37,723 nucleotides of DNA from Pseudogemmobacter humi (GTDB taxonomy: Bacteria > Pseudomonadota > Alphaproteobacteria > Rhodobacterales > Rhodobacteraceae), in contig NZ_UXAW01000068.1 of assembly GCF_900609055.1 (NCBI RefSeq), positions 1-37,723 of the forward strand. Direction: 5' to 3'. Both the position numbers and the translations under genes were made by a program. The first letter of the stretch is position 1. Each line of letters begins with the position of its first letter. Positions 1,425 through 5,359 of this stretch are shown here, piece after piece. Below the pieces are notes generated by a model that saw only the letters and a list, made by a program, of their open reading frames with translations, was not told where the DNA came from and ran no database searches.

Positions 1425-1514
1425 ATGACCAGCGAACCGCAGATCATCGCCGCCAGCCGTGGGGGCCGCCATGCCGCCCCCCGCCGCGGCCTTCTCCTTC
1501 TCAGCCTCCGCTGA
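1425..1514 (+). CDS. Leucine-rich leader peptide upstream of leuA (29 codons)
   Basis: A short frame from ATG at 1425 to TGA at 1512-1514 encodes 29 residues beginning MTSEPQII and ending GLLLLSLR. The run of codons CTT CTC CTT CTC AGC CTC just before the stop is the hallmark of a leucine attenuation leader: ribosomes stall there when leucyl-tRNA is scarce. The stop codon sits inside the first arm of a hairpin, and leuA starts 89 bases downstream. No Shine-Dalgarno sequence precedes the ATG, so translation may be leaderless or start elsewhere. The reading is direct from sequence; the function is inferred from the known logic of leu leaders. Confidence 0.65.
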   Translation: MTSEPQIIAASRGGRHAAPRRGLLLLSLR

Positions 1515-1576
1515 GCGGGCCTGCGGGCGCGACCGCTCAGATGTGACCAGCGCCCGGACCCGCAAGACCGGCTGAG
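1500..1576 (+). promoter_or_regulatory. Probable leucine attenuator hairpins
   Basis: Several helices compete here. Helix A: 1511-1518 (CTGAGCGG) with 1533-1540 (CCGCTCAG), overlapping the leader stop codon. Helix B: 1515-1519 with 1559-1563 (GCGGG/CCCGC), continued by 1525-1530 with 1550-1555 (GGGCGC/GCGCCC). Helix A and helix B share bases 1515-1518 and cannot coexist. CTCAGCC at 1500-1506 can also pair with GGCTGAG at 1570-1576. No U-run follows, so if this is an attenuator its output may be something other than simple intrinsic termination, such as access to the leuA ribosome-binding site or Rho action. Confidence 0.55.
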
Positions 1577-1603
1577 ACATCGAGAGACGAAGGACCCCGC
1601 CCC

Positions 1604-3181
1604 ATGGCACAGAATGACCAGCAACCCCGCGTTCTGATTTTCGACACCACGCTCCGCGACGGCGAGCAATCGCCCGGCGCCACCATGACGCATGAAGAGA
1701 AGCTGGAGATCGCCGGCCTCCTGGACGAGATGGGCGTCGACATCATCGAGGCGGGCTTTCCGATCGCCAGCGAGGGCGATTTCGCCGCGGTGTCAGAAAT
1801 CGCCAAACGCGCGCGGAATTCCACGATCTGCGGCCTCGCCCGCGCGAATTACAAGGATATCGACCGGGCGTGGGAGGCGGTGAAACACGCGAAATCGCCG
1901 CGGATCCACACTTTCATCGGCACTTCGCCGCTGCATCGGGCGATCCCCAATCTGGATATGGACCAGATGGCGGAACGCATCCACGACACCGTGACCCATG
2001 CCCGCAATCTGTGCGACAACATCCAGTGGTCGCCGATGGATGCGACGCGGACGGAAGCAGATTACCTCTGCCGCGTGGTGGAAATCGCCATCAAAGCGGG
2101 CGCCACCACGATCAATATCCCCGATACCGTCGGCTACACCTATCCGATGGAATCGGCGAAGATCATCCGCATGCTGCTGGAGCGGGTGCCGGGCGCCGAC
2201 ACCATCACCTTCGCCACCCATTGCCACAACGATCTGGGCATGGCGACGGCGAACAGCCTCGCCGCGGTCGAGGCGGGCGCGCGGCAGATCGAATGCACGA
2301 TCAACGGCCTCGGCGAACGTGCCGGCAATACCGCGCTGGAAGAGGTGGTGATGGCCTTGCGCGTGCGCAACGACATCCTGCCATTCCGCACCGGCATCGA
2401 CACGACGAAGATCATGCATCTGAGCCGCCGGGTCTCGACCGTCTCGGGCTTCGTGGTGCAGCCCAACAAGGCCATCGTCGGCAAGAACGCCTTCGTGCAT
2501 GAGTCGGGCATCCACCAGGACGGCGTGCTGAAGAACGTGGAAACCTTCGAGATCATGAAGCCCGAACATATCGGACTGACGGTCAAGAACATCGCCATGG
2601 GCAAGCACTCGGGCCGCGCCGCCTTGCGCGCCAAGCTGAGGGAACTGGGCTTCGACCTGGCCGACAACCAGCTCAACGACGTTTTCGTGCGGTTCAAGGC
2701 GCTGGCCGACCGCAAGAAAGAGGTCTACGACGACGACCTGATCGCGCTGGTCGCCGACGAGCAGACCAACGACGCGCATGAGCATCTGCAACTGAAGAAA
2801 CTGCGGGTGATCTGCGGCACCGAAGGCCCGCAAGAGGCCGATATGATCCTGACCATCGGCGGCGAGGATCACCATATCGACGCCACCGGCGACGGTCCGG
2901 TCGATGCGGCCTTCATGTGCGTCAAGATGCTGTTCCCGCATAAAGCGCGGCTCCAGGTCTATCAGGTCCATGCGGTGACCGAGGGCACCGACGCCCAGGC
3001 GACGGTCTCGGTGCGGCTGGAGGAGGACGGGCGCATCGTCACCGGCACCGCGGCCGACACCGACACCATCGTCGCCTCGACGCGCGCCTATATCAACGCG
3101 CTGAACCGGCTGATCGTGCGGCGCACCAAATCGGCGCCGGATGCCGACGTGAAATCGGTCAATTACACCGACGCGCCCTGA
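1604..3181 (+). CDS. leuA: 2-isopropylmalate synthase
   Basis: LeuA condenses acetyl-CoA with 2-oxoisovalerate to give 2-isopropylmalate, the committed step of leucine synthesis in the cytoplasm. The 525-residue length is normal. The N-terminal TIM barrel opens with DTTLRDGEQSPGA (residues ~13-25), which holds the metal and substrate contacts, and THCHNDLG supplies the metal-binding His-x-His pair. GLGERAGN and NAFVHESGIHQDG are further family signatures. The last ~130 residues form the regulatory domain that binds leucine for feedback inhibition. The start has GAAGGA at 1589-1594, nine bases upstream. The leucine-rich leader and hairpins just before it suggest leucine-responsive attenuation. 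Identification is firm. Confidence 0.96.
   Translation: MAQNDQQPRVLIFDTTLRDGEQSPGATMTHEEKLEIAGLLDEMGVDIIEAGFPIASEGDFAAVSEIAKRARNSTICGLARANYKDIDRAWEAVKHAKSPRIHTFIGTSPLHRAIPNLDMDQMAERIHDTVTHARNLCDNIQWSPMDATRTEADYLCRVVEIAIKAGATTINIPDTVGYTYPMESAKIIRMLLERVPGADTITFATHCHNDLGMATANSLAAVEAGARQIECTINGLGERAGNTALEEVVMALRVRNDILPFRTGIDTTKIMHLSRRVSTVSGFVVQPNKAIVGKNAFVHESGIHQDGVLKNVETFEIMKPEHIGLTVKNIAMGKHSGRAALRAKLRELGFDLADNQLNDVFVRFKALADRKKEVYDDDLIALVADEQTNDAHEHLQLKKLRVICGTEGPQEADMILTIGGEDHHIDATGDGPVDAAFMCVKMLFPHKARLQVYQVHAVTEGTDAQATVSVRLEEDGRIVTGTAADTDTIVASTRAYINALNRLIVRRTKSAPDADVKSVNYTDAP

Positions 3182-3254: not shown

Positions 3255-5359
<2,105 letters not shown>

Follow-up and report, generated by a model that had tools for sequence, protein, structure and literature searches.

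A conserved leucine-codon leader ahead of leuA in Rhodobacteraceae and other Alphaproteobacteria, a putative translational attenuator

In Pseudogemmobacter humi, the gene leuA is preceded by a short reading frame with a run of leucine codons and by a set of competing RNA helices, which together make up a real, widely conserved regulatory element. The anatomy of this element is well supported, and the mechanism is what we infer from it: on comparative evidence and folding models we consider it, with moderate confidence, a leucine-responsive translational attenuator, in which the start site of leuA is predicted to be sequestered by pairing with the coding sequence of the leader itself.

The window, by which we mean the whole analyzed stretch of 37,723 nucleotides, derives from contig C45 of the 4.47 Mb genome. 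On its + strand, to which all features described below belong unless stated otherwise, leuA occupies positions 1604 to 3181 and encodes a 2-isopropylmalate synthase of 525 amino acids with the Pfam domains HMGL-like and LeuA_dimer; the Shine-Dalgarno sequence GAAGGA, read from the sequence, lies at 1589 to 1594. The first-pass annotation had claimed a 29-codon ORF with a Leu run further upstream, and this is indeed present: the probably leaderless frame (1425 to 1514) encodes MTSEPQIIAASRGGRHAAPRRGLLLLSLR, ends with the stop codon TGA at 1512 to 1514, and its peptide finishes with GLLLLSLR. The codons CTT CTC CTT CTC AGC CTC CGC precede the stop, and the first four of them, the Leu codons −7 to −4 (1491 to 1502), are those conserved across the family leaders. 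When the 303 nt around the site were shuffled base by base, at least four Leu codons at −7 to −3 before any stop occurred in 1 of 20,000 shuffles. The segment 1415 to 1620 folds with −85.7 kcal/mol, compared to −73.3 ± 4.25 kcal/mol in 200 shuffles, none of which was as good (z = −2.92). The initial observation is confirmed as correct in its coordinates and beyond chance. On the minus strand, the ORFs at 48 to 800, which resemble a broken-up IS3-type transposase pair, stop about 600 bases before the leuA promoter and leave the leader intact; Pfam recognized HTH_21 in 65 to 496 and no domain in 496 to 792.

Two helices near the stop codon had also been described, and both exist as claimed. Helix A pairs 1511 to 1518, the arm that holds the stop codon, with 1533 to 1540 in eight perfect pairs (CTGAGCGG/CCGCTCAG, −13.7 kcal/mol), and the second helix pairs 1515 to 1530 with 1550 to 1563 (−24.6 kcal/mol); as they share bases, the two exclude each other as simple hairpins. 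Within the second helix, we designate as helix B the pairing of GGGCGC (1525 to 1530) and GCGCCC (1550 to 1555); the additional pairs 1515 to 1519/1559 to 1563 are an extension of B in the fold of the window. A third helix was missed in the first-pass annotation. In the lowest-energy fold of the window, the Leu-codon run (1490 to 1506) is paired with 1570 to 1593, a segment that takes in the GGCTGAGA box and the greater part of the Shine-Dalgarno sequence of leuA. We refer to this pairing, the arms of which are defined by the fold and by the own-partner test explained below, as helix C.

For the comparison within the family (Rhodobacteraceae in the GTDB sense), the stretches upstream of leuA were collected from 122 genomes, of which 13 belong to the genus and 109 to the rest of the family. 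The latter comprise 29 loci and 80 further regions, drawn from the best of a longer series of LeuA matches in a search that found LeuA in 290 of 295 genomes, and the sample therefore leans to closer LeuA relatives. A leader was accepted if it had at least four Leu in its last 14 residues, including LL, a rule that favours high Leu counts and that was satisfied in 115 of the 122 regions. The seven others are six regions in which a cupin gene comes first (L053, L054, L055, L060, L079, L089) and L068, where the element is visible and the leader start is unclear. The leader of L073 was assigned by hand, and L097, with TTG as its only start, was left out of the start-site counts, which use the in-frame ATG with the best −10 box and thus refer to 114 leaders. 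Alignments A1 and A2 contain 97 and 67 of the 115 family leaders, respectively, and alignment A3 contains 50 sequences, made up of 26 of these leaders and 24 loci from the class search, of which L150 belongs to the family, resulting in 27 family members and 23 others. The RNA model R1 for the element core was built from 67 family sequences, and R2 from 50 sequences, 24 of them class-search loci. Members outside the family were picked by models that contain the Leu-run columns; 73 class-search loci were kept (25 and 48), and 70 remained for the helix C test after dropping L150 (cupin first), L165 (near duplicate) and L231 (leuA motif not found).

The element is present in all 122 family regions, in six of them ahead of the cupin gene and in one without a clear start codon. 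R1, which was itself built from family members, matched 149 of 149 genomes in the order search, all of the same family, with best E values of at most 0.0031; this count includes the weak matches in genus g24 (E 4e-6 to 0.003), taken irrespective of their position. Secondary weak matches exist as well, for example G340:C42 with an E value of 0.0096. Among named genomes, the core consensus was found irrespective of position in at least 120 stretches, and the 80 listed ones carry mostly Rhodobacteraceae or Rhodobacterales names. In the P. humi genome, the leuA leader is the sole strong match to R1 (E 7.2e-14, the next being 1.97). A site at window positions 4245 to 4275, upstream of a gene that is presumably mreB-like, carries GAGCCGCCTCTGAG and resembles AGCCGCCTCTGAG of the leader; it is absent from the R1 matches in this genome, and the likeness is probably due to chance.

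Within the family leaders, Leu is found at codons −7, −6, −5 and −4 in 105, 111, 111 and 115 of 115 cases, while the third base of these codons varies, with CTT, CTG, CTC, CTA and TTG all being used; at codon −7, for example, CTG occurs 42 times, CTT 35, CTC 15, CTA 10 and TTG twice. The upstream part of the leader peptide is variable. Leader length peaks at 28 codons (37 of 114), and 86 of 114 leaders have 26 to 30 codons. An SD-like duplex of −4 kcal/mol or better stands ahead of leuA in 82.6% of the 115 relatives. The first-pass annotation had staked its case on conservation, naming the lack of the Leu run or the helices in close relatives as an outcome that would speak against it. Such a lack was looked for and is not what we found, as the Leu run, the stop-codon helix and the alternative helix are all kept across the family. 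An arrest peptide that is read at the level of its amino acids was considered and dropped, because residues −3 and −2 change together with compensation in the RNA.

Upstream of the leader, a −10-like box TGTAAC (1411 to 1416) ends 8 nt before the ATG, and a −35-like CTTTTC (1388 to 1393) is located 17 nt before this box. Many relatives have TATAGT at the −10 position, and by eye a block like CTTTTC, CTTTCC or CTTCCC is seen at about the same place as the −35-like element in many aligned relatives. A hexamer agreeing with TATAGT/TATAAT in five or more of six positions was found 6 to 9 nt ahead of the ATG of the leader in 98 of 114 family members when the best in-frame ATG was used, and in 63 of the 74 leaders with a single possible ATG, against a background of 0.5% at other ATGs of these loci; the box of the window itself has only 4/6 matches. 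An SD-like duplex precedes the leader ATG in 2.6% of the family leaders, so that the first-pass annotation was right about the missing Shine-Dalgarno site in both the window and the family. The placement of the −10 box suggests leaderless translation in the family: transcription would start at or next to the leader ATG, and the leader would consequently be translated without a Shine-Dalgarno sequence. This part of the original claim does not extend beyond the family, where the −10 box was found in 1 of 59 leaders and an SD-like sequence in 22 of 59, and the leaderless geometry is thus not class-wide.

Helix A comprises ten pairs in the alignments; in 109 of 115 family leaders, every one of the eight pairs of the initial count is formed. 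Together with its inner stem, it is paired in 98.2% of the cells of A2, where three pairs changed on both sides and the covariation score is 0.096 compared to 0.078 ± 0.003 in shuffled alignments. These double changes (3 pairs and 8 cells) hardly exceed those of some slid controls (2 to 3 pairs and 2 to 7 cells), and within the family helix A, judged from the alignment, is conserved rather than variable. On A3, with its 27 family and 23 other sequences, 97% of the cells are paired, and changes of both bases are seen in 8 of 10 pairs, amounting to 34 cells; none of 500 shuffles scored as high, and the covariation score was 0.325 compared to at most 0.217 for slid partners. The five pairs of the helix B core are intact in 113 of 115 family leaders, and a pair outside this core is G-C in 47, C-G in 34, U-A in 6 and unpaired in 26. 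For B, the own-partner test gave z = −7.6 in the family and no support outside of it (z = −0.5, n = 70). Of the conservation foreseen in the first-pass annotation, the stop-codon helix thus holds across the class, the Leu codons hold in part, and the alternative helix is not supported. Pairing and loop lengths (about 8, 3 and 6 to 7 nt) would allow A and B to form an H-type pseudoknot if the inner stem of A opens, and a hairpin with the inner stem fits equally well; the sequences are thus compatible with two alternative hairpins as well as with such a pseudoknot.

The own-partner test uses the consideration that, if a pairing is true, each leader should match its own partner more closely than it matches those of other leaders. 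For helix C in the family (n = 115), the own partner gave a mean duplex energy of −15.35, compared to −12.57 (sd 0.24) when partners were permuted (z = −11.7, 0 of 5000 permutations), and outside the family (n = 70) the values were −15.17 and −11.94 (sd 0.33; z = −9.8, 0 of 5000). Four controls were used, namely two stretches located before the Leu run, the opening codons of leuA, and the Leu run in reverse. In this order, their z values were −0.5, −2.0, −1.1 and 0.0 for family members, and −3.2, −2.9, −1.5 and −2.9 for leaders outside the family; since the control values reach −3.2 there, part of the signal outside the family may stem from shared ancestry or composition. In the free ensemble, at least four helix C pairs are expected in 91 of 115 family leaders and in 59 of 70 others. 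Compensated variants are exemplified by L085 (CUGCUAAGC/GCUUAGCAG), L073 (CUGAUCCUAAU/AUUAGGAUCAG) and L018 (UCUUGGC/GCCAAGA).

Operons in which leuA is not the first gene are informative about the partner of the Leu run. In all six family regions with a cupin gene before leuA, the element is situated ahead of the cupin gene. Ten family genomes (L150, L147 and L380 to L387) carry a gene for a cupin-like protein of 117 to 118 amino acids between the element and leuA, which ends 10 to 12 nt before leuA and in the one tested case, L380, matches Pfam Cupin_2; in such an arrangement the switch would control the cupin gene first. When equal windows of 26 nt before each gene were compared, the Leu run paired better before the cupin gene than before leuA in 10 of 10 cupin-leuA operons (−13.45 vs −9.91, p = 0.002). 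The partner in helix C is therefore associated with whichever gene comes first in the operon, and as a fixed place within the element would give the same result, the position near the first gene is by itself no proof of translational control.

Beyond the family, the element also precedes leuA in many further families of Alphaproteobacteria. In the class search, R1 matched 54 of 289 genomes at E ≤ 0.1, including four from the family. Among the 27 loci L150 to L176, 25 are upstream of leuA, the exceptions being L167 and L174, and L150 is the family member with the intervening cupin gene. R2 matched 91 of the 289 genomes, again with four of the family. Among 48 further, mostly weaker matches, 47 have a leuA motif close downstream (L231 is unconfirmed). 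In a phylum sample of 299 genomes, whose class make-up is unstated, R2 matched 57, namely 15 family members, 41 further genomes from the class and one from outside it (E 0.06). None of the nine listed f160 members in this sample (eight genomes of at least 6 Mb and one of 1.5 Mb) matched R2; the element may have been lost ahead of leuA in these genomes, or a different one may serve there.

The leaders outside the family have their own features. The usual form of helix A there is CCCCUGAGCG/CGCUCAGGGG, and variants like CCCCUAGGCG/CGCCUGGGGG also occur. Leu is found at −6 in 68 of 70 and at −4 in 70 of 70 leaders, and codon −4 is CTT in 69 of 70. At codon −5, 38 of 70 leaders possess Arg (37 CGA and one CGG; for example L158, L205, L235 and L249), which results in CTTCGACTTA in many of them (LRL type). 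CGA is possibly a slow Arg codon, and flanked by Leu codons on both sides it may contribute to the stalling signal. In 20 of 70 leaders there are at most two Leu in the last eight codons. The stop codon is missing from helix A in 5 of 70, being replaced by TGG in L159, L202, L252 and L256 and by GGG in L242, so that the ORF runs on into the hairpin; these leaders keep 8 to 10 of the 10 pairs. The sequence TTTT between stop codon and leuA, counted irrespective of a preceding hairpin, was found in 21 of 70 leaders.

In the family, a U-tract was not found after helix B (on average 1.1 T in 10 nt, TTTT in 3 of 115 leaders), and an intrinsic terminator was discarded there on this ground. The first-pass annotation had noted that a U-run is missing after the hairpins and had doubted a classical terminator; the former is right for the window and the family, the latter for the family. 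It had proposed leaderless translation combined with either Rho-dependent or translational control, and of these two we favour translational control, acting through the helix between Leu run and start site that it had missed. The lack of a U-tract in the family, together with the folding and helix C evidence, is the reason why we think that translational attenuation is the best reading. With ample charged Leu-tRNA, the ribosome would read through the leader and leave, the Leu run would pair again with the region around the leuA start, and little LeuA would be translated. With scarce Leu-tRNA, it would stall on the Leu run and cover the 5' arm of helix C while helix A would stay folded ahead of it; the leuA start region would then be freer, and more LeuA would be made. 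A ribosome at the stop codon would melt A and let B form, and reduced translation may add a Rho-dependent loss of the mRNA.

This scheme was followed in folding simulations of the 115 family leaders, in which the ribosome footprint was masked and the openness of positions −32 to −1 relative to the first gene start was calculated. The free RNA has medians of about 9 bp of A and about 10 bp of C. With the ribosomal A-site at Leu −7, helix A is kept and C is lost, and openness increases from 0.47 to 0.58 (92 leaders up, 11 down), compared to 0.48 with a control footprint placed 45 nt upstream. When the ribosome is instead placed at Leu −4 or on the stop codon, helix A disappears, B forms and openness reaches 0.57. 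As this is about the same value, the simulation alone cannot separate starvation from normal passage, and the time spent at each position would have to distinguish the two. The region −32 to −1 was chosen after a narrower one, −18 to +3, had changed little: there, stalling raised the value from 0.568 to 0.598 in the family (p = 0.03 against the upstream-footprint control) and from 0.398 to 0.451 outside (p = 0.14). The free ensemble of the window itself contains B and C and not A, and the openness of −32 to −1 rises only weakly, from 0.46 to 0.50–0.52.

As an alternative to translational control, reading through the leader could expose the RNA to Rho, or helix B could pause the polymerase, with stalling at the Leu codons preventing termination. 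The mutual exclusion of A and B follows the order that is expected of antiterminator and terminator, and B formed in the folding test when the ribosome was at the stop codon. Termination would need Rho in the family, as the U-tract is missing there. Transcriptional attenuation is also at home in this order, since a cysS uORF attenuator of Rhodobacterales is described as ending in a terminator (PMC8632094). However, such a mechanism requires neither the covariation of helix C with the start region nor its best fit to the first gene of the operon, and helix B is unsupported outside the family although A is kept. We regard transcriptional attenuation by Rho as unlikely.

It has also to be considered that a regulatory protein or another ligand binds the folded leader, in which stem C would enclose either A or a pseudoknot of A and B, and that the ORF matters little. 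The architecture is indeed that of the LEU element of Actinobacteria, whose authors doubted attenuation because mutations of the Leu codons were reported to be without effect on regulation, and proposed a protein instead (Seliverstov et al. 2005, PMC1262725); the same observation counts against translational attenuation in our case. With the loops given above, an H-type pseudoknot could accommodate A and B together, and the near-invariant CTT at codon −4 outside the family represents a constraint at the nucleotide level. Yet Leu is kept at −7 to −4 in the family while the codons vary, and the ORF has start signals of its own, which makes recognition by a ligand rather improbable. An even less probable role is that of a constitutive leader without leucine sensing, in which the uORF delivers ribosomes to leuA for reinitiation or the structure stabilizes the mRNA; the few Leu codons of some leaders outside the family would agree with this, whereas the conserved Leu codons in the family and the conserved pairing of Leu run and start region would not. 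Chance or an annotation artefact has a negligible probability and is already refuted by conservation, as the family-built R1 matches every genome of the order search and has one strong match in its own genome.

Returning to translational attenuation as the preferred reading, the leuA leader is a variant of leader-peptide control. A search with Rfam release 15 gave no match in the window (best E 8.4 in 1300 to 1700) and none in nine relatives, and with no match above the gathering score a known Rfam RNA was discarded. In a literature search that covered mainly open-access papers, no account of a leuA leader in Alphaproteobacteria was found. The classical example is the leu attenuator of E. coli, a 28-residue peptide with four Leu ahead of leuABCD (PMC6123439), which shares with the family element the Leu-codon leader peptide of the same typical length, its place ahead of leuA and the alternative hairpins. 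Of the features of classical attenuators, the ORF with cognate codons and the exclusive hairpins are found in the family and are weaker or unsupported outside; the U-tract terminator before the gene was not found in the family. Unlike in E. coli, the codon run itself pairs with the region of the gene start.

A different type of comparison is offered by translational attenuation of the erm type, in which ribosome stalling on a leader peptide controls the translation of the next gene and the signal is an antibiotic. Stalling on the leader peptide with an effect on translation of the next gene would be common to both, whereas here the signal would be a scarce amino acid and the stalling codons would be the sequestering strand. 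The ermC leader is mentioned in PMC2965389. For leaderless leaders, trpL (rnTrpL) of the alphaproteobacterium Sinorhizobium meliloti provides a precedent, as it is a leaderless ORF of an amino acid attenuator whose translation was seen by ribosome profiling; it differs by its use of Trp instead of Leu and by being described as giving rise to an attenuator sRNA (PMC10117765). Leaderless mRNAs are also frequent in Caulobacter (PMC4117421). The ilvB leader peptide of Alphaproteobacteria (Vitreschak et al. 2004, as cited in PMC1273637) likewise controls branched-chain amino acid synthesis in the same class, with a different gene; the words "leu" and "leucine" do not occur in the main text of PMC1273637.

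Within the same order, uORFC-8-2, the cysS uORF attenuator found in a survey of structured RNAs, agrees with the leuA element in that it combines an uORF with cognate codons and a conserved structure and was recognized by comparison, and differs by its Cys codons, its gene and its U-run terminator (PMC8632094). In the main text of the survey, leuA and isopropylmalate do not occur, and the number 8-2 suggests that there was another uORF candidate (8-1) for the same genome, which might be the leuA element.

The closest architecture in the descriptions that we found is the LEU element of Actinobacteria, which is likewise located upstream of leuA and contains an inner pseudoknot or an alternative hairpin (PMC1262725). 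Both elements have an uORF with a run of Leu codons and a base stem formed by the Leu run and the leuA Shine-Dalgarno sequence, and in both an inner pseudoknot or alternative hairpin is possible, with the reservation that B is unsupported outside the family. A terminator is not described for the LEU element in the accessible text. Compared by description only, the element presented here differs by its occurrence in Alphaproteobacteria, by the stop codon within a long covarying hairpin and, in the family, by the leaderless-type start. With chances slightly short of even, it could thus be a class-wide, uncatalogued alphaproteobacterial RNA in which the leucine-sensing codons are the strand that locks the ribosome binding site of the first leu gene, with a leaderless uORF in the family, and which, given an A/B pseudoknot, would be the counterpart of the LEU element, one leuA design in two phyla by descent or convergence. 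If this is true, a large bacterial class gains a leucine switch that has no entry in the RNA catalogue, and amino acid attenuation can act on translation without needing a terminator. The relatives would serve as a ready natural series of compensated variants, and the mechanism of the actinobacterial LEU element would become testable in tractable purple non-sulphur and marine bacteria.
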